Origin: Clavibacter michiganensis
GTDB lineage: Bacteria; Actinomycetota; Actinomycetes; Actinomycetales; Microbacteriaceae
DNA: 64,000 nucleotides
Reading direction: 5' to 3'
NCBI RefSeq assembly: GCF_021216655.1
Contig: NZ_CP080437.1
Span: forward strand, 1,550,001 to 1,614,000
Position 1 is the first letter of the stretch; the number at the start of each line of letters is the position of its first letter. The position numbers and the translations under genes are program-made. Below, piece by piece: positions 9,399 to 32,889 of this stretch. The notes beneath the pieces were generated by a model. It had not been told where the DNA came from, made no database searches, and saw nothing but the letters and a program-made list of their open reading frames with translations.

Positions 9399-10628
9399 AT
9401 GACCTCCCTCATCCGCTCCGAGCGCGTCGCCGCCGGGCTCCTCCTGCTCGCCGCCGTCGTCGGCCTCGTCGTCGCGAACACGCCGGCCGGGCCCGGCCTC
9501 CTCGCCTGGGCCGACGGGCACCTCGCCCTCCCCGCGATCGGCGTCGACCTGTCGCTCCGGCACTGGGTCAGCGACGGCCTGCTCGTCGTCTTCTTCTTCA
9601 TCGTCGCGGTCGAGCTCAAGCACGAGTTCCTGGCCGGCGGGTTGAACAGCGTCTCGCGCGCCCTCGTGCCCGCCATCGCGGCGGTCGGCGGCGTCGTGGT
9701 GCCCGCGCTCGTCTACCTCGCGATCACGGCGGGCAGCGGGCTCGAGCGCGGCTGGCCCGTGCCCACCGCGACCGACATCGCCTTCGCGCTCGGCGTCCTC
9801 GCGGTGTTCGGGCGCGGGCTGCCCGCCGCCGTCCGCGTGTTCCTCCTCGCGCTCGCGGTGCTCGACGACCTCATCGCCATCGGGATCATCGCGGTCTTCT
9901 TCACGACAGACCTCGACCTGGGCGCGCTCGCCATCGCGGTCGCGGGCGTCGTGCTGTTCGCGGTGGTCGGGCGCCTCGGCGTCGGGCGGACGGGCGCCGC
10001 CCGGATCGCCGTGGTCGCGCTGCTGGTGCTCGTCGCGCTCGTGACGTGGTGGGCGACGCTCTCCTCCGGGATCCACGCGACCATCGCCGGCGTCGCACTC
10101 GGCTTCGCGCTCCCCCGCCTCTCCGGGCTCCGCGCCGCGCACGCGCTGGAGCCCGCCTCCAACGGGATCGTCCTGCCGCTGTTCGCGTTCTCCGCCGCGC
10201 TCGTCGCGATCCCCGCGATCGGCCTCGCGGAGCTCGCGCCCGCGTTCTGGGGCATCGCGCTCGCGCTGCCGCTCGGCAAGCTCGTGGGGATCACCGCGGG
10301 CGGGCTGCTCGGCGCGTGGGTCGCGCGCCGCCGCGGATCCGCCGGCGGACTCGCGGTGCCGGATCTCGTGACCGTGTCGCTCCTCGGCGGCATCGGCTTC
10401 ACGGTGTCGCTGCTGATGAGCGAGCTCGCGTTCGCGGGCCTCGACGACGTGCGCGACGAGGGCACGCTCGCGGTGCTGCTGGGATCCGGCGTCGCGATCG
10501 TCGCGGCGGCCGTCACGCTGTCGATCCGCAGCCGCCGGGCACGCCGCGCCGGCGCCGCCGCTGATGACGACGACGCGACGCGGGACGACTTCCCGGCCCA
10601 CGCGGACGGCGGACCGGCCCGCGCCTAG
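9399..10628 (+). CDS. nhaA: Na+/H+ antiporter NhaA
   Basis: 409 aa, about 12 transmembrane segments. Electrogenic antiporter that exports Na+ (or Li+) for H+ in pH and salt homeostasis. The NhaA signatures are present: VPTATDIAFALGVLAVFG with the interrupted-helix TD pair (Asp126), and the ion-binding aspartate pair in LALAVLDDLIAIGI (156-157). The ATG at 9399 has GGAAGG 6 nt upstream and gives the normal N-terminus MTSLIRSERVAAGLLLL; an upstream GTG at 9333 is unlikely. The C-terminal tail is charged and cytoplasmic. Convergent with mfd, separated by only 23 bp. Confidence 0.93.
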   Translation: MTSLIRSERVAAGLLLLAAVVGLVVANTPAGPGLLAWADGHLALPAIGVDLSLRHWVSDGLLVVFFFIVAVELKHEFLAGGLNSVSRALVPAIAAVGGVVVPALVYLAITAGSGLERGWPVPTATDIAFALGVLAVFGRGLPAAVRVFLLALAVLDDLIAIGIIAVFFTTDLDLGALAIAVAGVVLFAVVGRLGVGRTGAARIAVVALLVLVALVTWWATLSSGIHATIAGVALGFALPRLSGLRAAHALEPASNGIVLPLFAFSAALVAIPAIGLAELAPAFWGIALALPLGKLVGITAGGLLGAWVARRRGSAGGLAVPDLVTVSLLGGIGFTVSLLMSELAFAGLDDVRDEGTLAVLLGSGVAIVAAAVTLSIRSRRARRAGAAADDDDATRDDFPAHADGGPARA

Positions 10629-19945: not shown

Positions 19946-20923
19946 CTAGGCCGCGCCGTCGAACATGCTCGTGACGGATCCGTCGTCGAAGACCTCGTGG
20001 ATCGCGCGGGCCAGCAGCGGCGCGATGGGCAGCACCGTGAGCTTGTCCCAGCGCTTGTCCTCGGGGATCGGCAGCGTGTCGGTGACCACGACCGAGTCGA
20101 TGTGCGGGCTGTCCAGGATCTGCGTGGCCGGGTCGGAGAAGACCGCGTGCGTTGCCGCGACGACGACGCCCGTGGCGCCGTTCTTCTTCAGGGCCTCGGC
20201 GGCGGAGACGATGGTGCGGCCGGTGTCGATCAGGTCGTCCACCAGGAGGCACACGCGGCCGGCGACGTCGCCGACGATCTCGTGGACGGTGACCTGGTTG
20301 TGCACCTTCGGGTCGCGGCGCTTGTGGATGATGGCGAGCGGCGCGCCGAGCTTGTCGCTCCAGATGTCGGCGACGCGCACGCGACCCATGTCGGGCGAGA
20401 CGACCGTGAGCGTCTTGGAGTCGAGCACGGAGCGCATGTGCTCGAGGAGCACGGGCATCGCGAAGAGGTGGTCGACGGGGCCGTCGAAGAAGCCCTGGAT
20501 CTGCGCGGCGTGCAGGTCGACCGACATGATGCGGTCGGCGCCGGCGGCCTTGAAGAGGTCGGCGACGAGGCGGGCGGAGATCGGCTCGCGGCCGCGGCCC
20601 TTCTTGTCCTGCCGGGCGTAGGGGTAGAACGGGGCGACCACGGTGATCCGCTTGGCCGAGGCCCGCTTCATCGCGTCGACCATGATGAGCTGCTCCATGA
20701 GCCACTCGTTGATGGGCGCGGTGTGCGACTGGATGACGAACGCATCGCTGCCGCGGACGCTCTCGTCGTAGCGGATGTAGAGCTCGCCGTTGGCGAAGGT
20801 CCGCGCGTCGGTGTGCACGAGGGTCGTCTCGAGCTCCTCGGCGATCTGCTCGGCGAGCTCGGGGTGCGCGCGACCGGTGACGATCACGAGCCGCTTCTCT
20901 CCGGCGGTCTTGATTGCGGACAC
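19946..20923 (-). CDS. prs: Ribose-phosphate pyrophosphokinase
   Basis: 325 aa class I PRPP synthetase: makes 5-phosphoribosyl 1-pyrophosphate from ribose 5-phosphate and ATP for nucleotide, His and Trp synthesis. Motifs: RYDESVRGSDAFVIQSH, PFYPYARQDKKGRGREPISARLVADL, the SVDLHAAQIQGFF stretch and the PRPP loop VCLLVDDLIDTGRTIV. Starts 14 bp after the glmU stop; glmU-prs is a conserved actinobacterial operon. Confidence 0.96.
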   Translation of the reverse strand: MSAIKTAGEKRLVIVTGRAHPELAEQIAEELETTLVHTDARTFANGELYIRYDESVRGSDAFVIQSHTAPINEWLMEQLIMVDAMKRASAKRITVVAPFYPYARQDKKGRGREPISARLVADLFKAAGADRIMSVDLHAAQIQGFFDGPVDHLFAMPVLLEHMRSVLDSKTLTVVSPDMGRVRVADIWSDKLGAPLAIIHKRRDPKVHNQVTVHEIVGDVAGRVCLLVDDLIDTGRTIVSAAEALKKNGATGVVVAATHAVFSDPATQILDSPHIDSVVVTDTLPIPEDKRWDKLTVLPIAPLLARAIHEVFDDGSVTSMFDGAA

Positions 20924-20937
20924 GGGACTCCGTCTCG

Positions 20938-22482
20938 TCAGTGCTGCTCGGTGTGCTCGGTCCCGGACGGATCGTCCTGGTGCCCCTCGGCCGCCTCGAC
21001 GGCGGCCCGGGCCTCGGGGGTGCCCGGTCGCTTCGCCTCGGTCCAGCCGACCATGTTGCGTTGCGGCACCACCGAGATGCCGAGTGCGCCGGGCGGCACG
21101 TCCTTGCGGATGACGGCACCGGCACCCGTGTAGGAGCCGGTACCGATCCTAACCGGTGCGACGAGGACGTTCCGCGAGCCGAGGTGCACGTGGTCGCCCA
21201 CCTCGGTGCGGTGCTTCGTGTGCCCGTCGTAGTTCGCGAAGACCGCGCCGGCGCCGATGTTGGTGTGCTCGCCGATGGTCGCGTCGCCCACGTAGCTGAG
21301 GTGCGGGACCTTGCTGCCCACGCCGATCTCCACGTTCTTCGTCTCGACGTAGGCGCCGATCTTGCCGTCGTCGCCGAGGCGCGTGCCGGGTCGCAGGAAG
21401 GAGAACGGGCCGACCGTCGCGCGGGCGCCGATGACGGCCAGCTCCGCGTCGGTGCGGCGGACGGTCGCGTCCTCGCCGACCTCGGTGTCGCGGAGGGTCG
21501 TGTCCGGGCCGACCGTCGCGCCCGCGGCGACCGTGGACGCACCGAGGATCTGCGTGCCCGGGAGGACGGTGACGTCGGCGGCGAGCGTCGCCTTGACGTC
21601 GATCCAGGTGGTGCGCGGATCCTGGATCGTCACGCCCGCGAGCTGCCAGCGGCGGATGATGCGCGCGTTCAGCTCGGTGGCCGCGGCCGTGAGCTGGACG
21701 CGGTCGTTGATGCCGGCGACGAGCCAGCTGTCGCGCACCGGCAGGCCCTCGATGGCTCCGCCCGCGCGGCGGATCACGTCGGCCGCGTCGGTGAGGTACT
21801 TCTCGCGCTGGGCGTTGTCGGTGCCGATGGCGCCGAGGGTCTGGCGGAGCGCCTCGGCGTCGAACACGTAGACGCCCGCGTTGACCTCGTCGATGCGGAG
21901 CTGCTCGCCGGTCGCGTCCTTCTGCTCGACGATGGCCTCGAACGCGCCGTCCTGGCCGCGGATGATGCGGCCGTTGCCGGTCGGGTCGTCGAGGCGCGCG
22001 GTGAGGAGCGTGAGGTCGTTGCGCGCCTGGCGGTGCGCGGAGACGAGCGAACGGAGCGTGGCCGCGTCGAGCAGGGGCACGTCGCCCGAGAGCACGACGA
22101 CCTGGCCGGTGAAGCCGTCGGGCAGGGCCGTGATGCCCACCTCCACCGCGCGGCCGGTGCCCGGGATCTCGTCCTGGTCGACCACGAGGGCCTGCGGCGA
22201 CAGCGCGCGCACGACCTCGACGACCTGGTCGCGATCGTGGCGCACGACCGTGACGATGTGGCGCGCGCCGAGCTCCTCCGCGGTCGCGAGCACGTGGCCG
22301 ACGAGCGGCAGGCCGGCGAGCGGGTGCAGGACCTTGGGCAGGCGGGAGCGCATGCGGGTGCCCTGGCCGGCGGCGAGGATCACGACCGCGATGGAGGGGC
22401 TGCGCGGCTCGCCGTCGACGTCGAGCTCGCCCGTGACTATGGGGATCTCGCGGGTCGTCGGCGTGATGTCTGAGTCGGTCAT
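20938..22482 (-). CDS. glmU: Bifunctional GlmU: N-acetylglucosamine-1-P uridyltransferase/acetyltransferase
   Basis: 514 aa. Makes UDP-GlcNAc for peptidoglycan in two steps. N-terminal uridyltransferase: VVILAAGQGTRMRSRLPKVLHPLAG and LSGDVPLLDA with DEVNAGVYVFD; C-terminal left-handed beta-helix acetyltransferase with hexapeptide repeats and HLSYVGDATIGEHTNIGAGAVFANYDG. The ATG at 22482 (CAGGAGATCGCC upstream) adds about 28 residues before the Rossmann strand; the longer upstream frame has no coding character. In relatives I expect tRNA-Gln to sit directly upstream; here the island intervenes. Confidence 0.95.
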   Translation of the reverse strand: MTDSDITPTTREIPIVTGELDVDGEPRSPSIAVVILAAGQGTRMRSRLPKVLHPLAGLPLVGHVLATAEELGARHIVTVVRHDRDQVVEVVRALSPQALVVDQDEIPGTGRAVEVGITALPDGFTGQVVVLSGDVPLLDAATLRSLVSAHRQARNDLTLLTARLDDPTGNGRIIRGQDGAFEAIVEQKDATGEQLRIDEVNAGVYVFDAEALRQTLGAIGTDNAQREKYLTDAADVIRRAGGAIEGLPVRDSWLVAGINDRVQLTAAATELNARIIRRWQLAGVTIQDPRTTWIDVKATLAADVTVLPGTQILGASTVAAGATVGPDTTLRDTEVGEDATVRRTDAELAVIGARATVGPFSFLRPGTRLGDDGKIGAYVETKNVEIGVGSKVPHLSYVGDATIGEHTNIGAGAVFANYDGHTKHRTEVGDHVHLGSRNVLVAPVRIGTGSYTGAGAVIRKDVPPGALGISVVPQRNMVGWTEAKRPGTPEARAAVEAAEGHQDDPSGTEHTEQH

Positions 22483-22768
22483 GGCGATCTCCTGATCTGC
22501 GTTGCGTCTCTCCGGCGCGGCCGGCGGGCGTCGCGAGGTGTTCGGTCTGGTCGCGGATGCCACTGGTGGTAAGGATCTCGGATCCGAGCGGTCACGGGCG
22601 TTCCGCGGCTTTGGGATCCTGCTCCACGGCCTGGTCTGCACCCTATGGGGAAGCGCCTCGCAGCTCCCGCTTGACAAGCAGCCGGAGACGCCTCACATGG
22701 TGCCCGAGGCTCAAGGCCAGCTTGCTTCGGTCCTGGCGCCTGACCGCGCGCTCAAAAGGTTACGCGAA

Positions 22769-23206
22769 TCAGCGTGAGTCTGAAGCCGCAGCAGGACACA
22801 TCTCAGGGCTGGGGTCCGAGGGCGTGTATCCGAGGGTGACAGACCCCTCGATGACGACGAAGGCCGCGGCCATGACTCCGGCCACCTTGCCTCTGAAGTC
22901 GAGGAAATTCTTCCCCGGATCCGACATCAAGTGCGCGACAGCGCGCGCTGCGCTAGCGAGCAGCGAAACGATACTCACGGAGAGTACAAGGATGGCGAGC
23001 CCAGTGGCCGGCCTCCCACACGTTCCGAACGTCACGTCGTGCGCGTTCCAAGCTCCGATGGCGAGCACTACACCGCTTATGAGCACCGCGAAGAGGGCCG
23101 CCAAACCAAGGTGCTGACCCTCGGGCTCTCGACTCCCTTTGCGTACCCGCACCCCGGGCACACAGGCGGCAGATTCTGCTCGTGCAGGATCACCCTCGCT
23201 TTTCAC
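22769..23206 (-). CDS. Hypothetical membrane protein with three TM helices
   Basis: 145 aa, not recognised. Three hydrophobic helices (about 34-57, GLAALFAVLISGVVLAIGAW; 67-87, GLAILVLSVSIVSLLASA; 107-128, VAGVMAAAFVVIEGSVTLGY), with a basic N-terminus and a short polar C-terminus. First gene at the left side of the island. The start is uncertain. Codon use is less GC-extreme than in the flanks, so it may be foreign. Confidence 0.5.
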   Translation of the reverse strand: MKSEGDPARAESAACVPGVRVRKGSREPEGQHLGLAALFAVLISGVVLAIGAWNAHDVTFGTCGRPATGLAILVLSVSIVSLLASAARAVAHLMSDPGKNFLDFRGKVAGVMAAAFVVIEGSVTLGYTPSDPSPEMCPAAASDSR

Positions 23207-23238
23207 ATTGCTGAGAGTACCTCATTCCCACGGGCGGC

Positions 23239-23448
23239 ATGGGCGAGAACACGGTGGACAGTCGCGTCCTGTTTACATTCAGTTGGGCGCACCTTATGGT
23301 GCTGCTCGGCAACCTACCTGCAGAGCAGCTACACGACGCGTGGCGGCCGTCACGACAGACAGCCCTTAAGTCCGGCATTCAGGCCGCTGCGCAGCTTTTG
23401 GTCGACAAATTGAACGACAGCGACGAAGCCCGCTTCTTCAAGAACTGA
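23239..23448 (+). CDS. Possible small protein or gene remnant
   Basis: 69-aa open frame, not recognised. The second half (HDAWRPSRQTALKSGIQAAAQLLVDKLNDSDEARFFKN) reads like an amphipathic helix and looks more protein-like than the other frames here. No clear Shine-Dalgarno. It could equally be the 3' remnant of a decayed island gene. Confidence 0.3.
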   Translation: MGENTVDSRVLFTFSWAHLMVLLGNLPAEQLHDAWRPSRQTALKSGIQAAAQLLVDKLNDSDEARFFKN

Positions 23449-23759
23449 TTGGCACTGGCCTTGGCGCTCGAACGAGCTGAGGACGCTCCTGTTCGTCGGA
23501 GTGGGTTGGCGGCAGGCGATGTCATCGAGTACCCGGTCGTTACGCGGCTCGTTCCTGGAATACAGAGCCGGGATGAGCTGCGTATAGAGCACGACGAATG
23601 GTTGACCCGATAGCGCAGGCCTGCCGCATGCAGGAGTCACCGGACGGCGAGTTCCGGTTTGGTGTCGCGGCCCTTGTTATTCTGCATCGAACGACGTGTG
23701 CCGTCCATCGTCGCCCAAGAAATCTGTTCTCCACTCGTCACTCGAGCATCTCTCCGAAG
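23449..23759. other. Non-coding stretch inside the island
   Basis: About 310 bp between the small open frame and the end of the Z1 gene. Open frames on both strands are short, lack start signals and overlap each other. No hairpin or repeat stood out. Probably decayed island DNA. Confidence 0.4.
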
Positions 23760-26700
23760 TCAGTCGGCGTCGATGATCTGCCCGTAGTCGACATCGGAAC
23801 GCTTGGCACGGAAGCCGACACGGCTGAGCGACTTTGTTGACGTCGGCATAACGATCGAGAAGAGCGTCGCCACATCCTTAGCTTCGGCAGGTCCCTCAAT
23901 CTCTGACGTCTTCCGGCTGAGGGCCGAGCCGTCAGGTCTGATCACGTCGTCGGCGAAAGTGAACAGGATCGCTCCGCGGCCCTTCTCTCGTCGCAGTGAA
24001 TTGGCCTCCGGTCCGGTAGGCCCTTCCTTCGATGCCCCCGCGATGAACTCGACGGCATGACGCTGGCGAGCAGAGCTTCCGGAGAATCCTCGACGATCAC
24101 CACGCCTCTTGCGCTGAAGAATCTGCACACGTCGTCCCGTGACGTCGTGAAGCTGCTCGCCGGCGACCGACAGCTCGGGGAAGATGAGGGCGAAGTCATC
24201 GAGCTGTCCGACCTCGACGGCCCGTTTGATGAACGCGACCGTGGGCTTGAATGAGTAGCCGTCCGCCCAGGTGAACTTGTCAAGCACCTCGGCGACTTCG
24301 CCCGCGGGGACGATGGCCACTCGAGCCGTGTAGCTGCGCGCCAAATCCGTCAGAAGGTCTACCGCTTCGCCCCGCTCATCAAGCCACGGGGTAACAAGTC
24401 CGAAGTGGCGTGCGTTGGCGGCTCCGGTTCCTCTATCAGCGTGCATAGGAAAGTCGCGCGTCTTGCCGGGGCTTCCCTCGACAGCGATTTCGGTGTTGTA
24501 CATTTTGTTCCCGGAGGTCGGCCGGAGCCACGGAAGCTGCTGGAACACGAGAGGCGGGACGTCGATCGGCCGCATTGCCGGTCGCCCGGTCACGGGGTCC
24601 ACCTCCGAGAACTCGTCAAGCTGGTCGCGGAATGCCTCCTCGTCCTGCACCATCGCGGTGAAGGCGTCGTACAGGTCGTAGCTCTTGCCGCGAGAGTCCG
24701 TGACGTCACGCGCAATATACAGCCGAACGAGGTCGCGGTAGCCGGGCCGGTAGCCGAACCAGCGCCCCATCTGCATGAAAGTGTCGGCGGCCATGGCGCG
24801 ACGCTTGAAGTAGGTAACGGTGAGACCTTCGACGGTGAAGCCGCGGCTGAGCTTGGTGCCGCCGACCATGATGCGCCAGTAGTCCTTGGTCGTAAAGTCC
24901 ATTGCGTCGTAGTCGCTCTCTTTGGAGCCGTTCACGACGACGACGGGGTTGTTGTCCGACATGACCTTGCCGACCGCTTCACCGATGTATTCGGCGAGGT
25001 CCTCGAACGCCATAGGAAGCTTGACACCCCAGCCGCGTGCTCGGTGCACTGGGGCGAAGTCGGTCTCGTAGAGCTCGCGCAGCCTGGCCTTCGCCTCCGG
25101 CGAGCGATAGCTGGCCTCCGCCCACACCTGACGGATCAGCGTCGCGAGGGTGCTGTGCGCGGCCTGTGTTACTTCCTCGTGTACGAGCATCGTGTGGTGG
25201 CGGAACTTCAGGTCCGGATTCTGCGTCTGCCGCCACAGTTTGATAGCGCCGGTGAGAACGAAGGCGTCGAGAGCCTGCCGGATCTCGGTCATCTCGGCCG
25301 CCGATCCCGGTGCGGCGAGGAGGTTGCGCACGTGCGCCTCCTCGTTGGAGTTCGCAGCGGTCGCTTCCTCATCCGGCTGCAGGGGTTCGAGGTCGTGGAA
25401 CATTGTACCGCCCATGTAGTCGGCCGAGGCCTTGAGCCTCACGATGAAATCTCGCGGGAAGATGTCGATCTCGTCATCCGGCTCGACGAACACGTTCGCA
25501 AACGGCGTGGCCGTGTAGCCGACGTATTGAGCCCGCGGCATGGTATCCAGAATGTTCGAGATCAGCTTGTTGATCGCGGTCCTGTCCTTCTCCTCGTCCG
25601 CGCGCCGGGCCTTTTTAGAGTTATTCTTGGTGTTGACCGACGCTTGGTCCGCTTCGTCGTCGATCAGAAGCACGGGAATCTCATCGAGGCGCGTCCTGAC
25701 GTTCTTCAGATCAGTGAGGAGCTTGGTGAGTACAGACTTGTTCTTTTTGACCACTGCAATGCGCACGTTCGTGCCGAAGAGGTTGTCGGGGTGGTTCACC
25801 GGCTTGCTCACGTCGACGAGCTCGGCGGCCGAGCGGAAGTCGAGCGTGTCCAGACCTTGCTTCAACGCCTTGTAGTCGCCGCTCGCCGTGGTGAGGCGTT
25901 TGATCGAGGGAATGTCCCGGCGCGCGTTGACATCGATGTCGTGTCGGAGGAACTTGCCGGCGAGCCAGTCCGTGTCGCCGCTGCCAGCGTAGTCGACGTC
26001 GCGAACGGCGTTGACGTCGTTCTTGTCGTGGCCGCCGAGGATGTTCTCCTCGCCGATCAGCTCCATGTCCAGGCGCCGTTGGGTCTGTCCGCGCAGAAGT
26101 TCGATCGTGCCGGTCAGCACGATGACGAGCCGGTAGCCAGCGTCGATGGACTTCGCGATCATGCCGGTGAAGTTGGCGGTCTTGCCGCTCTGCACGTAGC
26201 CGACGACGAGGCCGCGCGAAGAATAGGCGGCTGCGGCGGCGGGGTCGACGAGCCGGCTGACGATTGTCGAGGCGGACGCGTCGACCTCGGCGATCGCCTC
26301 GGGCTTCCACTTCTTGCCTTCTAGTACGCCCTTGTAGGCCTTCCAATAGAAGTCACGTTCCTGGCGGCCCGTCGTGTACCAGGGGTCCCACCGCTCGCTC
26401 GTGATGACGGAGTCCACGAGCGCCTGGCTCGGGAACGCCTCATCGACACGGGTGCGCGCAGCATCGCTTAACTTCAGTAGGTCGTATATCCTCTGGCGTC
26501 GGGTGGCGGATCCGACCGCGGCGCCATCCGGCCACGCGGCCCCCTCCGCCACGTCCCATTGCGCGAGCGCGATGTGTGCCGCGTACCGCGCGGGGTCGTT
26601 CACGCCAGCCTCGACGATGAAGGAGACCACCGAGGCCTCATCGACGGCGTCGTGGCCGCCTTCCTCGACGTCGAGATTCACGCGTGGGAGCAGGGCCTTC

Positions 26701-26774
26701 GGCCCCGACTTCTCCATTGCGTTGAAGGCGGACTGGATCGCGCTCGCGAGTGCGCCCGGCTCTACAGTGCTCAT
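23760..26774 (-). CDS. Z1-domain superfamily 2 ATPase (restriction-system motor)
   Basis: 1004 aa. Motifs of a helicase-like SF2 ATPase with the Z1 domain: Walker A GYVQSGKT (192-199), Walker B LLIDDEADQAS (Asp372-Asp376), motif III GYTATPFANV (419-428), motif V-like GGTKLSRGFTVEGLTV (638-653) and the Z1 hallmark MQMGRWFGYR (667-676) with DLVRLYIARD. Z1 proteins are the NTP-hydrolysing N subunits of the NgoAVII/CglI type of ATP-dependent restriction systems and also occur in restriction operons with MORC ATPases. Here it directly follows a PD-(D/E)XK protein (ATGA overlap at 26771-26774) and faces a MORC ATPase and a C5 methyltransferase. Inferred role: ATP-driven translocation or activation of DNA cleavage. 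All ATPase motifs look intact. Confidence 0.88.
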   Translation of the reverse strand: MSTVEPGALASAIQSAFNAMEKSGPKALLPRVNLDVEEGGHDAVDEASVVSFIVEAGVNDPARYAAHIALAQWDVAEGAAWPDGAAVGSATRRQRIYDLLKLSDAARTRVDEAFPSQALVDSVITSERWDPWYTTGRQERDFYWKAYKGVLEGKKWKPEAIAEVDASASTIVSRLVDPAAAAAYSSRGLVVGYVQSGKTANFTGMIAKSIDAGYRLVIVLTGTIELLRGQTQRRLDMELIGEENILGGHDKNDVNAVRDVDYAGSGDTDWLAGKFLRHDIDVNARRDIPSIKRLTTASGDYKALKQGLDTLDFRSAAELVDVSKPVNHPDNLFGTNVRIAVVKKNKSVLTKLLTDLKNVRTRLDEIPVLLIDDEADQASVNTKNNSKKARRADEEKDRTAINKLISNILDTMPRAQYVGYTATPFANVFVEPDDEIDIFPRDFIVRLKASADYMGGTMFHDLEPLQPDEEATAANSNEEAHVRNLLAAPGSAAEMTEIRQALDAFVLTGAIKLWRQTQNPDLKFRHHTMLVHEEVTQAAHSTLATLIRQVWAEASYRSPEAKARLRELYETDFAPVHRARGWGVKLPMAFEDLAEYIGEAVGKVMSDNNPVVVVNGSKESDYDAMDFTTKDYWRIMVGGTKLSRGFTVEGLTVTYFKRRAMAADTFMQMGRWFGYRPGYRDLVRLYIARDVTDSRGKSYDLYDAFTAMVQDEEAFRDQLDEFSEVDPVTGRPAMRPIDVPPLVFQQLPWLRPTSGNKMYNTEIAVEGSPGKTRDFPMHADRGTGAANARHFGLVTPWLDERGEAVDLLTDLARSYTARVAIVPAGEVAEVLDKFTWADGYSFKPTVAFIKRAVEVGQLDDFALIFPELSVAGEQLHDVTGRRVQILQRKRRGDRRGFSGSSARQRHAVEFIAGASKEGPTGPEANSLRREKGRGAILFTFADDVIRPDGSALSRKTSEIEGPAEAKDVATLFSIVMPTSTKSLSRVGFRAKRSDVDYGQIIDAD

Positions 26775-27763
26775 GCCTCTCCCTCGCAGAAGCCGTTCAA
26801 CGGTGCGGGTGCATCGGTGAAGGGAAAATCGGTGACATTGAGACGATATGAGACGTCGCCGACATGCACCGGCTGAGGTACCACTGCATCCAGGCGTGGG
26901 CGCGTGATCGCTGGGAAGCGTTCATCGACAAGGAAGGCCCTCGGGCGGCTGCGGTACTGGAATCGCAGAGCGTAGAGGTCGCGTGCCTCATCCCGCCAGC
27001 CAGCTGATTCCAAGCGGTCGTCGAGGGTCCGAGAACTGTGGCCAATACTGGAGCGCACCTCGTCCACCAGCTGCGGAAGGGTGAAGCCGTCTTGGCCGCG
27101 CCCCGCGAGGGTGAGCTGGATCGAGACCAGATACAGCGGGCGGCCCGGCGAGGGCATCAGCTGGGTCTCGGAGCCGATCACGTGCAACCGCGAATCGGAC
27201 CTGGTGGTCTTTACCTCCGCCTCGAAGTCATCGAAACCGAAGTCGTGCTCCCCGGACTCGGGGCCCAGCCAGGCGCCGACGGCAGCATCCTCGCCGATCA
27301 CGTCGATCACGTGCCGCAGCAGGAGCAGTTCACCGAGGAAGCCAGCCTCCTTCTCGTCCGTCAGGCGGCGGCGCCTGCTGAGGAGGTCCTTCAGTGCTTC
27401 GAGCGTTTCGCAGAGCGCGTGACGCAGCGTTGCTCCATGCTGCATCTGGTCGACGACGGACTCCGCAAGCGTGTACGCCTCGTACCGCATGCCTGCCGCG
27501 TCGATGTCAATGCGGAACCACTTCCCCGAACGGCCGGGGAGGACCGTCGCGGCAACAGAGATTCGCTCAAAAGCGGAGACATCGGGCACCTCACCCCGCG
27601 TCGGCACGTACAGGCTGATCTGCTGAGCGTGAGGATCGATATCGAGGAAGGCATCGATCTTCGCGCTCAACCGGAACCGAGCTGGCGCCGCCGCCCGGAA
27701 ATACACGTCTACTGTCTCCGGCGTCAGATGCTGAACGACTTTCTCCGTCAGGCCGCCGACCAT
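26771..27763 (-). CDS. PD-(D/E)XK nuclease family protein (DUF4420-like)
   Basis: 330 aa. The candidate catalytic centre is Glu145 in EAGFLGELLLLRHV, Asp174 in GEHDFGFDDF and Glu183-x-Lys185 in EAEVKTT, the typical E...D...ExK arrangement of PD-(D/E)XK nucleases. The overall layout matches the PD-(D/E)XK motif protein (DUF4420) often encoded next to Z1 genes. ATG at 27763 follows an AGGGGGGA Shine-Dalgarno 4-5 nt upstream; the longer upstream frame would cross the divergent promoter. Its stop overlaps the Z1 start, so the two are made together. Likely the restriction nuclease subunit that cuts unmethylated DNA; this is inference from context and motif. Confidence 0.8.
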   Translation of the reverse strand: MVGGLTEKVVQHLTPETVDVYFRAAAPARFRLSAKIDAFLDIDPHAQQISLYVPTRGEVPDVSAFERISVAATVLPGRSGKWFRIDIDAAGMRYEAYTLAESVVDQMQHGATLRHALCETLEALKDLLSRRRRLTDEKEAGFLGELLLLRHVIDVIGEDAAVGAWLGPESGEHDFGFDDFEAEVKTTRSDSRLHVIGSETQLMPSPGRPLYLVSIQLTLAGRGQDGFTLPQLVDEVRSSIGHSSRTLDDRLESAGWRDEARDLYALRFQYRSRPRAFLVDERFPAITRPRLDAVVPQPVHVGDVSYRLNVTDFPFTDAPAPLNGFCEGEA

Positions 27764-27962
27764 AGATCCCCCCTGCTCGTCCGCCGTGCTGCTTCTCCGG
27801 GCCGATGCACCGCTCGAGCAACGAGGGCACCGTGCAGCGCACCCGCCGAGCCTAGCCGGGTCGAGGGGAGCGCCTGCTCCCCCCATTTTGGGGAGAACGC
27901 CGGTACTTGATCCGAGGGATCCCGGTCGCTGAGTGTCCGACGAGGGCTGTAGCGTCCCGGGC
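27764..27962. promoter_or_regulatory. Divergent promoter region of the defence module with iterated half-sites
   Basis: 199 bp between the start codons of the nuclease (minus) and the MORC-sigma gene (plus). It holds three alternating half-sites, GGGGAG at 27865-27870, CTCCCC at 27877-27882 and GGGGAG at 27890-27895, so that neighbouring pairs form two overlapping inverted repeats with starts 12-13 bp apart. A second palindrome, GGGATCCC, lies near 27917. This looks like an operator that could control both operons; the binding protein is unknown. Confidence 0.5.
27949..27954 (+). promoter_or_regulatory. Candidate -10 box for a leaderless MORC-sigma transcript
   Basis: TAGCGT matches the actinobacterial TANNNT -10 pattern and ends 8 nt before the ATG at 27963, the spacing expected if transcription starts at the start codon. 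No good -35 is seen and no strong Shine-Dalgarno precedes the ATG. Confidence 0.35.
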
Positions 27963-30900
27963 ATGGAGTCGACTGAAGAGCACGCCGGGGCACCGCAGGT
28001 CGTTGAGCTCTCGCCCGATCCGTCGATCCTCAGCGCTATCGGCGCGGGGCATTCTCTGGCTACGGCGATGGCCGACTTGATCGACAACTCCATCGACAAG
28101 GGGGCGACCAAGTTCCTGGCGCGCTTCATCACTCGCAATGAGGAGCTCATCGGGATTCGGATGCACGACGACGGCGCAGGAATGTCCGCAGTGCAGCTCG
28201 CGTCAGCGATGCGCCTCGGCGTCCGTCGCGAGTACGGAGCGGCCGAGCACGGGCATTTTGGCGTCGGTTTGAAAGCGGCGTCGTTCAGTCAGGCCGACCG
28301 GTTGACCGTCTACTCGCGGTGCGGCTATGAGCCCACGCGAGCGATACGTCTCACGCGCGGAAGATTCGAGGGCGAGGTTCTGCGTGACGCTGAGGCCCAG
28401 CGCGGATTCACGAAGGGTGCAGGCGGTTTTGCCCGTGTCGAAAGCGGCACTGTCGTCGAATGGGACCACCTGCACTCGGTCTTCACCGGCGATGTGGAGG
28501 TCGATCGGCGACGTTGGCTCGACGAGGTGTTTACAAGTCTGGGACACGACCTCGGGCTGACGTTCCACAGAATCATCTCGCGCGGCGACATCACGATCGT
28601 CCTACAGCAGTTCGACACACGAACGGGCGACGGCGTCCCCGTCAAAGTGACGTCCGTTGACCCGTTCAATTTTACGTCTGGCGCCGCCGGTTACCCACTC
28701 AATCTGGTCGGAACGACCCGGGGTGGCACAGAACTGCTCTTCACGTGCCACATCATGCAGCCCGCGAACCAGGGGCCGAGCGCGAAGTTGCTGGGTCGCC
28801 CGCGAGCGGAGTGGCAGGGTTTGTATGTCTACCGTAATGATCGGCTCCAGCAAGCCAGCGGCTGGTTGAACTTACTGCCCGGCAACATGGTCGAACTGCA
28901 GCTTGCGCGGGTCGCCGTCGACGTGACTACAGGGGCGCTTGGCGCCGTTCGCATCAACCCTGAGAAACACGGCGTCGTGTTCACGGCAGACGGTGTCCAC
29001 GCGGTGGAACGAGCTGTCACGGAAGACGGACGTGATTTCCGGTCCTTCCTGTCCGCGGCGAGGGACGTGTTCCGGCTCGGCAGCAAACGCGATCGCGGCC
29101 CGAGGCCGGTTGCGCGCATTGCGGAAGGACTCCCTCAGGCCGTCATCGGCGCGATGGATGAGGAGTTCGGATTCCGCGACGATGGCAACAATCTACGCGT
29201 CTTGTGGAAGCCTCTGGGCCGCGGCCGGCTCTTCGAACTGGAGCACGCCGCAGCGACGGTCTGGTTGAACGAGGGCTACCGGGAACAACTTCAGGGCGCC
29301 CATGGCGGCGATGCCGCATTCTTCAAAACCTCGATCGTGCTGCAGCTGCAAGACAAGCTGGAGCGCGGTCATTTGCAGCAGAGCACCGTCGACCAGATCG
29401 AGCGCATCCATGCGGTTCTCGCGGCCGCCACGTTCCAGCAGATCGACGAGCACGGTTACGACGCAACTCTCCAGCCGGCGACACGCGCCGCTCGACCGAC
29501 CGCTGACGCCGAACTCGATTTCGACGAGTGGCAGGTCGGCGACGAAGTTCCAATACCCGCGCGAGTCGACGAGGGGGGCTTCTCGATTGATCGTCCCGTC
29601 TCTGAGTCGGTCAAGCGCTATCGAGAAATCCCGCACTCTATAGACGCGGCGAAGCAGTACCTCTGGGGAATTGGGAGAGCGAAGTTGCTCAGCACCGCCG
29701 AAGAGGTTGAGCTCGCGCGTCGTATTGAGGCCGGGCTGCTCGCTGAAGAGCGTCTCGCCTCCGATAGCGCTCAGGAACAGCGCAGGTCGTTTCTACGCGA
29801 GCTTCGAGAGATCGCCGACGCTGGTAAGCACGCCAAAGCGCGATTCGTCAACGCGAACTTGCGCCTGGTCGTCTCCGTCGCGAGGCGCTACGCAGGGCGC
29901 GACATGGAGTTACTGGACCTGATCCAGGAGGGAAACATGGGGCTCATCCGCGCGGTCGAGAAGTTCGACTACGAGCAAGGGACGAAGTTCTCTACGTACG
30001 CCACCTGGTGGATCCGGCAGGCCATCTCGCGGGCGCTCGATGATAAGGCACGCGCCATCCGCCTACCAGTACATCTGATGGAGTCACTGCGGAGACTGTC
30101 CGGCGCTCGCGCGGCGCTCGAACCGCTCTACCCAGATGGCGTACCGCTCGACGAGCTCGCCCGACACTCCGAAATCGACGTGTCTGACATCGAACGGCTC
30201 GTCGCTGCGGACCGGCTGACGCACGTGTGGTCACTTGATGCGCCCTGGTACAACCCAGAACTGCGAATGGACGAGCCCTTCGGTGATCACCTCGTAGACG
30301 ACGCCGCTGACTCCACAAGCGACACCTTCGAGGCACTATTGCTCCGACGGAATCTCGTCCAAATCCTGAGCGCCCTGGACTGGCGGGAGGCGCGGGTCCT
30401 CGTGCTGCGCTTCGGGCTCGATGGAGGCGAGCGTCGGACACTTGATGCGATCGGTGTCGAGTTCGGGGTCACCCGCGAGCGGATCCGACAGCTAGAGAAG
30501 AAGGCGCTGGAGACAATGCGTGGCCCCCGTGCGCAGGCAATGCTCGCGGGTCACCACTGCGTCGACGACAGCGCGGTTCGTGAAGATAGGCCCGTCACCT
30601 CGGTCCGCACAGCTAGGCCCCTGACCATCGAGGACCACATTAGGCAGTATGGCCGGATAAAGCGTCGGACTCAGCCAGCCGCGCAGTTGACGATCGTGAG
30701 CTCTTCCGCCGTCAACAGATCGACGCAACGACAGACCGATCCCATTGCGAGCCCCTCGGACATAGAGTCCGCCTTTCTCAGTGGCCAGCACCCTGATGAC
30801 ATCGCTCGCCGCCTGAACGTCGATCGAGGCACTGTCCTAGCATCGCTCAGCCAGCGACTCTTCGGCGTCGAACAATCGACGCAAACTTCTGACCGTCCCG

Positions 30901-31136
30901 CCCGCCACGGTTCCGGGTACTCGGATGCCGACGCACAGCTGATCGATTCAACGCTGTCCACCGGCGCATCGATCCACGACATCGCGGTCCGGCTTGAGCG
31001 GACTCCTTACGGTGTTGCCTGCCAGATCCTGTTGGAGCCCCGCCATGCGGACGAGTTCCGCAGGCGTCAGGCGAGGGCAGTGGAAGAGCGCCGGCGGGAC
31101 CATGGTCCCGCCGGCGCGCCGGCATCGCAAGCGTGA
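27963..31136 (+). CDS. MORC-type GHKL ATPase fused to a full sigma-70 factor
   Basis: 1057 aa in one uninterrupted frame. Residues 1 to about 505 are a GHKL ATPase of the MORC/MutL kind: N box MADLIDNSID (36-45), MHDDGAGMS (67-75) and GHFGVGLKAASFSQ (97-110), then a transducer-like domain. After a linker (about 505-560) comes a group 1/2-like sigma factor lacking region 1.1: region 1.2 YLWGIGRAKLLSTAEEVELA (566-585), region 2 from 624 with LLDLIQEGNMGLIRAVEKFD (650-669) and KFSTYATWWIRQAISRAL (675-692), region 3 about 700-780, and region 4 about 797-855 with GVTRERIRQLEKKALETMR. The residues for core binding, -10 melting and -35 recognition appear kept. Two further HTH-like repeats fill 931-965 and 985-1020. 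ATPases of this class sit in restriction operons with Z1 and methyltransferase genes, as here; the sigma fusion is unexpected. A GTG at 27933 is an alternative start. Confidence 0.9.
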   Translation: MESTEEHAGAPQVVELSPDPSILSAIGAGHSLATAMADLIDNSIDKGATKFLARFITRNEELIGIRMHDDGAGMSAVQLASAMRLGVRREYGAAEHGHFGVGLKAASFSQADRLTVYSRCGYEPTRAIRLTRGRFEGEVLRDAEAQRGFTKGAGGFARVESGTVVEWDHLHSVFTGDVEVDRRRWLDEVFTSLGHDLGLTFHRIISRGDITIVLQQFDTRTGDGVPVKVTSVDPFNFTSGAAGYPLNLVGTTRGGTELLFTCHIMQPANQGPSAKLLGRPRAEWQGLYVYRNDRLQQASGWLNLLPGNMVELQLARVAVDVTTGALGAVRINPEKHGVVFTADGVHAVERAVTEDGRDFRSFLSAARDVFRLGSKRDRGPRPVARIAEGLPQAVIGAMDEEFGFRDDGNNLRVLWKPLGRGRLFELEHAAATVWLNEGYREQLQGAHGGDAAFFKTSIVLQLQDKLERGHLQQSTVDQIERIHAVLAAATFQQIDEHGYDATLQPATRAARPTADAELDFDEWQVGDEVPIPARVDEGGFSIDRPVSESVKRYREIPHSIDAAKQYLWGIGRAKLLSTAEEVELARRIEAGLLAEERLASDSAQEQRRSFLRELREIADAGKHAKARFVNANLRLVVSVARRYAGRDMELLDLIQEGNMGLIRAVEKFDYEQGTKFSTYATWWIRQAISRALDDKARAIRLPVHLMESLRRLSGARAALEPLYPDGVPLDELARHSEIDVSDIERLVAADRLTHVWSLDAPWYNPELRMDEPFGDHLVDDAADSTSDTFEALLLRRNLVQILSALDWREARVLVLRFGLDGGERRTLDAIGVEFGVTRERIRQLEKKALETMRGPRAQAMLAGHHCVDDSAVREDRPVTSVRTARPLTIEDHIRQYGRIKRRTQPAAQLTIVSSSAVNRSTQRQTDPIASPSDIESAFLSGQHPDDIARRLNVDRGTVLASLSQRLFGVEQSTQTSDRPARHGSGYSDADAQLIDSTLSTGASIHDIAVRLERTPYGVACQILLEPRHADEFRRRQARAVEERRRDHGPAGAPASQA

Positions 31137-31153
31137 ACGGCGCGCTCGTACCG

Positions 31154-31159
31154 TAAGTT
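31154..31159 (+). promoter_or_regulatory. Candidate internal -10 box for the methyltransferase gene
   Basis: TAAGTT (TANNNT) ends 9 nt before the methyltransferase ATG at 31169, inside the 32-bp gap after the MORC-sigma stop. If used it would give a near-leaderless mRNA and let the methylase be made independently of the upstream gene, useful for protecting self DNA. Confidence 0.3.
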
Positions 31160-31168
31160 TGAGCCGAC

Positions 31169-32269
31169 ATGACCACGACCAACCTCGCCCCCATCCGCAC
31201 GCTCGACCTCTTCGCAGGAGCCGGAGGGCTCAGCGAAGGTTTCCGCGAAGGCTCCGACCGCTTCTCGACGGTCCGTGCGGTCGAGATGGACGTAGCGGCG
31301 GCAGCCACTTACGCGTTGAACCACGGCGACGACCTCGTGTTCGCCGGCCCCGTTGAGGAATGGCTTGCGCAGGAGGAAGTCCCGTCCGTCGACCTCGTCC
31401 TTGGGGGCCCGCCTTGTCAGGGCTTCTCCACACTCGGGAAGCAGGACGCCGAGGACGTGCGGAACTTCCTCTGGAAACAATACGCGGAAACAGTCAAACG
31501 AGCGCAACCCAAATACTTTGTAGTCGAGAACGTTGCCGCATTCACCAAGTCTCGCCAGTTCGAAGATTTTCGCCGTGAAACGTCCGCAGCGGGAATGCTA
31601 CCCAACTACTCCTTCGACTGGCGCGTCCTCAACTCGGCAGATTATGGTGCAGCGCAAGCACGGAAGCGCACTGTCATTCTGGGGTGGCGTGACGACCAGG
31701 AAGCGCCAGGATTCCCCGAGCCGACACACGGACCCGGGCGCACGCTTGCGCATGTCTCCGTTCGACAGGCCTTCGAGCAGCGCGGGATGGCTGCCGCCGT
31801 CAGCATGATCGACCTCCCTCCCAATCGCGCTCGAGTCGTCAACGGACGCGCGGTGTCCGGGCCCTACCGCGCCGCGGAGCTGCACGTCACCCGCTACTAC
31901 ACGGAGCTCTCGCGCGAGCGGTTCACTCACATCCCCGAAAAGGGCAACCGCTTCGACATTCCATTTGAGCTCTTGCCTGACTGCTGGAAGAAGCACACAT
32001 CAGGATCGGCAGACGTCATGGGGCGACTGCACTGGGACAAGCCGTCAGTCACCGTCCGCACAGAGTTCTTCAAGCCGGAGAAGGGGCGTTACCTCCATCC
32101 GGTCGAGGACCGAGCGCTCACGCACTACGAGGCTGCGACGCTCCAAGGATTCCCCGACGAGTACCTCTTCATGGGAACGAAGATCGAAATCGCGCGACAG
32201 ATTGGTAATGCCGTGCCGATTGCATTAGGCGCCGCGATCGGACGACACCTGGCAGGGCTGCTCGGTTGA
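31169..32269 (+). CDS. DNA (cytosine-5-)-methyltransferase
   Basis: 366 aa modification enzyme that transfers a methyl group from S-adenosylmethionine to C5 of cytosine in a specific sequence. Conserved C5-MTase motifs are all visible: I DLFAGAGGLSEGF (13-25), IV GGPPCQGFS with catalytic Cys83, VI ENV (120-122), VIII QARKR (163-167), X GNAVP (346-350). The target-recognition region between VIII and X is short (about 180 residues including motif IX). It begins 32 bp after the MORC-sigma gene on the same strand and is presumably the self-marking partner of the Z1/PD-(D/E)XK restriction pair. Recognition sequence unknown. Confidence 0.93.
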   Translation: MTTTNLAPIRTLDLFAGAGGLSEGFREGSDRFSTVRAVEMDVAAAATYALNHGDDLVFAGPVEEWLAQEEVPSVDLVLGGPPCQGFSTLGKQDAEDVRNFLWKQYAETVKRAQPKYFVVENVAAFTKSRQFEDFRRETSAAGMLPNYSFDWRVLNSADYGAAQARKRTVILGWRDDQEAPGFPEPTHGPGRTLAHVSVRQAFEQRGMAAAVSMIDLPPNRARVVNGRAVSGPYRAAELHVTRYYTELSRERFTHIPEKGNRFDIPFELLPDCWKKHTSGSADVMGRLHWDKPSVTVRTEFFKPEKGRYLHPVEDRALTHYEAATLQGFPDEYLFMGTKIEIARQIGNAVPIALGAAIGRHLAGLLG

Positions 32270-32600
32270 AAGCGTCTTTGCGCTCTCATCCATCAGCGCA
32301 CTGGGCCAAGCGCCGATAACTTTCATCGTGGCCATCGTTAAAGGACCGTTGTCAACCGTGGAAGGTCAGCCCAGCGGCAGCGAAGTCGGGGCGGTCGCTG
32401 GCTCAGTCGAACATGTGCAGCGCGCGATCGTTGCGCGTTCTACTGCCGGCTTGGTCGAATCGCGCACAGCTGTCCATCGCTGCCATCATCGCGGCGCCGT
32501 CCGTCTCGAGGTAGTGGATGCAGCCTCTTCAGGCGGGTGCCTGCGCTGAGTCAATAGCTCGTGCCTGGCCGCCGTTCTCGTGCTCGTCGACCGCCGCAAG
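32270..32600. other. Non-coding stretch downstream of the methyltransferase
   Basis: About 330 bp between the methyltransferase stop and a truncated minus-strand frame. The only open frames are short, without start signals or recognisable domains. No terminator hairpin stood out. Probably remnant island DNA. Confidence 0.4.
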
Positions 32601-32814
32601 TTAGAGTCTCAGCCCGCCGGAATGCGTGCCGAGCCTCCCGAGCGCGGCCTCGGGCGCTTCTCGCAAAGGTCGTTCGCGCCGCACCCACTCCTGCGCCGCG
32701 CCGCGAGCGGCGTCCCCGAGCGGGCTGTGGGCGCTCCACTCGCCCACCCGGTCCAGCGTGTGATAAGTCCAGGTAGTTCCGTCGAAGTATCGCCGTCCGG
32801 AAGCGTCAACCTCG
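32601..32814 (-). pseudogene. 3' remnant of a gene, truncated at the tRNA-Gln junction (DUF2510-like motif)
   Basis: A minus-strand frame of 71 codons ends with TAA at 32601 and begins exactly where the tRNA CCA ends; it has no start codon of its own. The peptide contains DASGRRYFDGTTWTYHT, reminiscent of the RyWDG..WT motif of DUF2510 domains common in actinobacterial membrane proteins. Its 5' part is missing, as expected when recombination at a tRNA 3' end cuts a gene. The open frame continues through the tRNA only by chance. Confidence 0.5.
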
Positions 32815-32889
32815 TGGCTCCGCCCCCAGGATTCGAACCTGGACCTCACAGCTCCAAAGGCTGAAGTGCTGCCGTTACACCAAGGCGGA
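32815..32889 (-). tRNA. tRNA-Gln (anticodon UUG), CCA encoded
   Basis: On the minus strand: acceptor stem UCCGCCU/GGGCGGA, discriminator G, encoded CCA at 32815-32817; anticodon loop CTTTGGA (anticodon UUG); T arm CCAGG TTCGAAT CCTGG. Mature body 72 nt. Its 3' end borders the genomic island. Confidence 0.95.

Follow-up and report, generated by a model that had tools for sequence, protein, structure and literature searches.

Among the closest described systems is MZA (mzaABCDE), whose mzaA is termed 'a sigma factor' in the part of Miller et al. consulted here, and the role of this sigma factor is apparently unexplained in the literature we found. The locus considered below lies in a 64,000-nucleotide stretch of Clavibacter michiganensis (NZ_CP080437.1, positions 1,550,001 to 1,614,000; hereafter the window), in which a single frame of 1057 codons (27963-31136, forward strand) encodes a MORC-type GHKL ATPase, a SigA-like sigma-70 factor and two C-terminal helix-turn-helix (HTH) units. 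What is new here is that this fusion gene is headed by a predicted leaderless promoter of the PafBC/RecA-NDp type; the gene, judged from its sequence, appears to be inducible by DNA damage, and this points to a controller of DNA restriction that stress would trigger. As a natural fusion tying sigma to a GHKL ATPase, it offers one protein in which that link can be probed, and, provided that its sigma part is functional, it would exemplify the gating of a sigma factor by an ATPase clamp that handles DNA.

All four NCBIfam models for MzaA to MzaD match proteins of the window, yet far below their cut-offs (MzaA, NF041931, 271 bits against 800; MzaB, NF041932, 102.9 against 850; MzaC, 285.1 against 1500; MzaD, 72.3 against 420). 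The MzaA- and MzaB-like parts form one polypeptide in the window, where a C5 methyltransferase is also present. By these profile scores the window's system uses parts similar to those of MZA without being a member of it. An assignment of MzaA identity through the PADLOC model was set aside as non-specific, given that both ordinary RpoD proteins scanned (P0054 and P0065) score better than the fusion. The system of Miller et al., in the part consulted, has three core genes in common with the window; its type II occurs together with proteins of the MORC family and a putative regulator of transcription, a few systems have an mzaA-like sigma, and a fusion is not mentioned there. Three further frames of the island that carries the fusion have no Pfam match, and no MzaE/AIPR gene was found in it (not every short frame was scanned).

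Other described systems share single elements with the locus. Prokaryotic MORC and paraMORC proteins (Iyer 2008, PMC2292703) bring the GHKL and S5 module into restriction loci, as in the window, but the word 'sigma' is absent from the main text of that paper. The CglI and NgoAVII restriction-modification systems are described, in the portion of PMC4267653 consulted, with an R-protein that is a PLD-B3 nuclease, and neither GHKL nor sigma is mentioned in that portion. The DUF499/DUF1156 systems related to bacteriophage exclusion (BREX), as presented in the excerpts of PMC12839542 consulted, have a DUF1156-type methyltransferase and a DUF499 ATPase in common with the extended fusion loci discussed below, whereas both are absent from the window's island; the main text is without 'GHKL', 'MutL' and 'DUF4420', and the sigma-like part there is the small HTH of BrxL. 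The PafBC/RecA-NDp regulon of Actinobacteria, in the sections of PMC5656591 and PMC6789036 consulted, has the box and spacing of the window promoter, although those sections treat DNA repair genes and no restriction-modification target. In CapK-CapS, according to the part of PMC13373217 consulted, DNA damage likewise raises expression of a defence operon and the sensor is a GHKL protein, but a GHKL kinase acts there with a STAS repressor and no sigma factor of the fusion kind. Among the open-licence literature matches listed, by their titles and the starts of their abstracts, there was neither a PafBC-controlled restriction system nor a GHKL-sigma fusion (the MZA discovery paper lay outside the scope of that search).

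The frame may be read from a GTG (27933-31136) or from an ATG (27963-31136); the latter is probably the true start, given a TANNNT box whose end lies 7 bases upstream of it, and such a box stands 5-9 bases upstream of the start in 10/10 fusion genes. A first-pass annotation of this DNA had proposed a MORC-type ATPase joined in frame to a sigma-70 factor, and the open frame and Pfam matches above curated cut-offs bear this out (HATPase_c_3 62.7 bits, Sigma70_r1_2 34.8, Sigma70_r2 80.8, Sigma70_r4 54.3). The encoded 1057-residue protein begins with a GHKL and S5 module (27996-29057, residues 12-365), recognised by Pfam, the MORC/SMCHD1 fold and its ATP motifs, and having the N, G1 and G2 boxes and the S5 lysine of MORC-type GHKL proteins; it is the one MORC-type GHKL match above the Pfam cut-off in its own genome. 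A conserved region follows (29058-29477, residues 366-505) that is present too in stand-alone relatives, and then a fast-evolving linker predicted with low confidence (29478-29639, residues 506-559; predicted local distance difference test score, pLDDT, below 50 at 504-559), for which the ratio of nonsynonymous to synonymous substitution rates (dN/dS) is 0.37 and 0.59 over residues 506-565. The SigA-like module (29640-30566, residues 560-868; Pfam region 1.2 at 29652-29738, region 2 at 29847-30053 and region 4 at 30366-30521) precedes a C-terminal tail of two HTH-like units (30750-31097, residues 930-1045; two helix triplets, pLDDT mostly 81-92), and a similar tail occurs in sigma-less relatives too.

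The DNA-damage-type promoter is predicted at 27934-27965 on the forward strand (TGTC 27934-27937, TAGCGT 27950-27955, ATG 27963) and follows the PafBC/RecA-NDp pattern of TGTC, 12 bases and TANNNT; the consensus for RecA-independent DNA-damage promoters is given in the consulted part of PMC5656591 as tTGTCRgtg-8 nt-TannnT. TGTC stands 12 bases upstream of TANNNT in 8/10 fusion genes (9 if GTC suffices), which come to 6 lineages with the strict motif when the three Curtobacterium loci are counted as one, and the strict motif was found in 0/75 stand-alone GHKL genes. Within the fusion's own genome the pattern with a gap of 6-8 bases to ATG occurs 6 times and the reversed pattern 0 times, the six genes being, by eye, uvrB, radA, a glutathione peroxidase-like gene, a metallophosphoesterase, an unknown and the fusion; the genome also holds neighbouring PafB- and PafC-like genes (Pfam HTH_PafC, WYL and WCX; PDB PafBC). 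In fusion-free loci the strict motif heads 12/25 C5 methyltransferases (14 relaxed; L053, L056, L059, L074, L077, L078, L096, L099, L100, L114, L117 and L118, among them three almost identical copies from Actinomyces, L074, L078 and L100), as against 1/9 (2 relaxed) in fusion-bearing loci; the methyltransferase start of L112 was also positive in another scan. As the motif lies mostly on the fusion where that is present and often on the methyltransferase where it is absent, it would seem that the damage promoter has shifted to the front of a unit made up of fusion and methyltransferase. A promoter of this type, on the fusion and on the methyltransferases of fusion-free relatives, proposes DNA damage as the signal for an actinobacterial restriction-modification family.

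The fusion recurs widely. At least 71 protein clusters hold both GHKL and sigma (49 of 120 matches listed and 22 new among the 120 listed in a second search), and where an organism is named it belongs to Microbacteriaceae in almost every case (Cryobacterium, Planctomonas, Microbacterium and Curtobacterium), with one Micrococcales bacterium besides. Among 79 loci retrieved through the GHKL part, 8 have the fusion (L041-L047 and L055), 2 have a GHKL-tail gene without sigma (L075 and L076) and 69 have stand-alone GHKL genes alone; further loci add one fusion (L140), a sigma-less tail form (L142) and GHKL-tail genes without sigma (L129 and L160). Since at least 71 clusters hold both domains and 8/79 loci encode the fusion, a join produced by sequencing error is ruled out. 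That the join is an accident or is decaying, its sigma part having no function, is highly improbable and already disfavoured: the distribution is indeed patchy, with a GHKL match in 14 of 398 family genomes and sigma also in 5 (G000, G383, G475, G651 and G625; G551 has a sigma-less gene), and several relatives have no sigma, but the number of clusters and the low dN/dS of the sigma part argue otherwise.

The history of the sigma part is one of exchange. Two GHKL trees were built quickly, without bootstrap and from subsets of rows (39 of the 49 fusion clusters plus loci in one, 79 rows in the other). The first (124 rows) places fusions and tail forms together, with a value of 99 that is not a bootstrap percentage, and separate from the stand-alone GHKLs; in the second, with more sigma-less relatives, 4 switches between presence and absence of sigma are needed, the stand-alone GHKLs still group at 99 on the same footing, and the L075/L076 tail group shifts position relative to the first. 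P0143, without sigma, is sister to P0136, which has it; P0145 and P0146 share 72% identity with the GHKL part of the window and end within the linker; and P0144 has repeated HTH tails in place of sigma. These sigma-less sisters and the tails of P0144 point to sigma as an exchangeable module; the long branches of the sigma tree leave a single origin of sigma unsettled. A phage or plasmid origin was considered and rejected, with two weak GHKL relatives in viral contigs (25% identity) and 0/224 matching plasmid records covering 80% of the fusion; the sigma part has matches in 35 phage records. P0052 and P0053 are RpoD-like proteins whose second half and C-terminal tail resemble the fusion, with the look of an RpoD/fusion chimera from recombination or misassembly.

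The state of the sigma part was judged by positions invariant among 35 RpoDs, scored in the window and in 38 fusion rows of the at least 71 clusters, with region borders that we drew ourselves. The window retains 20/30 such positions in region 1.2 (9 kept in at least 90% of the fusion rows), 30/37 in regions 2.1-2.2 (15/37), 27/34 in regions 2.3-2.4 (22), 8/22 in region 3.2 (2), 13/24 in region 4.1 (4) and 19/33 in region 4.2 (13). The first-pass description of regions 1.2, 2, 3 and 4 as intact stands, by Pfam, for 1.2, 2 and 4; for region 3 it goes too far, there being no Sigma70_r3 match in the protein and few retained positions in regions 3.0-3.1, as detailed below, and the recognisable region 3 expected of a primary (group 1) sigma factor is lacking. 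The predicted fold of region 3 remains helical despite this divergence. Region 3 is dispensable in the wider sigma-70 family, and extracytoplasmic function sigmas are without it; by regions 2 and 4, which exceed curated cut-offs and retain promoter- and core-contact residues, the fusion belongs to that family. In two within-genus pairs (window against L041 and L042) the sigma part as a whole has dN/dS values of 0.13 and 0.23, and within it region 2 has 0.066 and 0.061 and the faster region 4 has 0.17 and 0.25; the GHKL part has 0.11 and 0.11, and the stretch just after sigma 0.71 and 0.56. By these ratios the sigma part is under purifying selection, and from both comparisons the core and -10/-35 contacts look alive and region 3 changed. 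The earlier view that the sigma had not decayed agrees with the low ratio of region 2 and with the contact residues of regions 2 and 4, which alignment finds present.

Two other readings of the sigma part have to be weighed against these data. It may serve only as a DNA-binding and DNA-melting module having no role in transcription, as the diverged region 3 and the other HTH units that take sigma's place in P0144 would allow; we consider this unlikely, however, as the core-binding regions 2.1-2.2 are among its best-kept parts. Less probable still is an integrated decoy, in which sigma would bait phage anti-sigma or polymerase-hijacking proteins and trigger the ATPase or a nuclease. Fusion sigmas do lie on longer branches than housekeeping sigmas in the sigma tree, and region 4 evolves faster than region 2, but their DNA-contact residues are invariant, which a bait would not need, and the damage promoter and the pairing with a methyltransferase would be left unexplained.

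At the restriction operon itself, GATAGAA[GA] lies 20-220 bases before a frame in 6/10 fusion loci against 1/72 others, and TAGAAAG[GA] in 5/10 against 4/72; the reversed motif gives 1/10 against 6/72 and a second shuffle 0 against 1, and GATAGAA[GA], meant as a shuffled control for TAGAAAG[GA], overlaps it. A GATAGAAAGG-like motif precedes restriction-operon genes in L043, L044, L045, L047, L055 and L140 (e.g. L045 9885, minus strand). As a sigma-specific motif it was rejected, being post hoc (first spotted by eye in fusion loci) and confounded with lineage. It is retained as a lead, GATAGAA[GA] being the first place to seek binding by sigma or tail.

The reading that we tentatively favour is a DNA-damage-induced controller with an ATP-gated sigma: PafBC would sense damage and the fusion protein would be made, and the ATP-gated MORC clamp, in one molecule with sigma, would license it. 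That the resulting holoenzyme would also decide how modification and restriction are balanced at the fusion's own divergent locus, making of the whole a damage-induced restriction controller, is possible but doubtful. The first-pass interpretation of the fusion as a whole finds partial support. A rather unlikely alternative is polymerase-tethered targeting of restriction, in which the fusion must supply the ATPase function of minimal loci, where no second MORC-type GHKL was found beside it; the retained core- and promoter-binding residues agree with this, as does the loss of sigma or its replacement by extra HTH tails (P0144), as for exchangeable targeting parts. The extended loci L044, L045, L047 and L055 speak against it: there the restriction genes have a separate, stand-alone GHKL of their own, and the partner of the fusion is instead the methyltransferase (outside the retrieved slice in the case of L055). 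The evidence for the controller, tethering and DNA-binding-only readings is largely common to all three, and what separates them is their experimental predictions.

Several observations weigh against the controller. The promoter motif speaks for the fusion as a target of control, not as its agent; the fusion locus L043 has no TGTC-type box, and the sigma-less tail genes carry the strict motif in 0/3 cases (1 relaxed). Regions 3.0-3.1 retain just 5/44 RpoD-invariant positions in the window, and 0 in at least 90% of the fusion rows; the -35 helix looks ordinary, and therefore gives no sign of a private promoter class. As for the GATAGAA lead, it proves nothing: fusion loci are where it was first noticed, its distribution follows lineage, and the three Curtobacterium loci, the window included, do not have it. 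Sigma is dispensable, as the GHKL-tail genes without it (L075, L076, L142, L129 and L160) and the 4 tree changes attest. The usual catalytic residue of the N-box is Glu, as in MutL, and Asp takes its position in 124/124 GHKL rows (window 28074-28076), which could weaken ATP hydrolysis.

The fusion belongs to an inserted island of defence type, 10.3 kb long (22535-32812; 63.5% GC against 72.6-73.8% in the flanks) beside a tRNA-Gln (32815-32889, reverse strand) at the insertion point. The site is empty in 17/17 other genomes of the genus, where the two flanks (20800-22534, and from 32813 onward) meet with a 5-6 base overlap, and no exact direct repeats of at least 6 bases were found up to 30 bases from either end of the island. 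Downstream of the fusion lies the C5-cytosine DNA methyltransferase (31169-32269, forward; Pfam PF00145, NCBIfam TIGR00675), and on the reverse strand are a DUF4420 PD-(D/E)XK protein, MzaD-like (26771-27763, start 27763 from alignment), and a further listed gene (23760-26774). DUF4420 matches across loci rest on a two-row profile, with Pfam confirmation in the window, L039 and L040 only. In extended loci a DUF1156-type methyltransferase and a DUF499 ATPase adjoin the fusion, and in L046 a broken DUF1156 gene start is seen by eye between DUF4420 and fusion (about 9506-9890, minus strand). A BrxL gene (L043 15880-18006, minus strand; Pfam BrxL_N and BrxL_ATPase) lies near the Planctomonas fusion locus. 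Last, the divergent intergenic region of the window has a CTCCCC-N-GGGGAG inverted repeat (27881-27900), a possible operator; visual inspection shows it in L041 too and, in a less exact form, in L042, L055 and L140.
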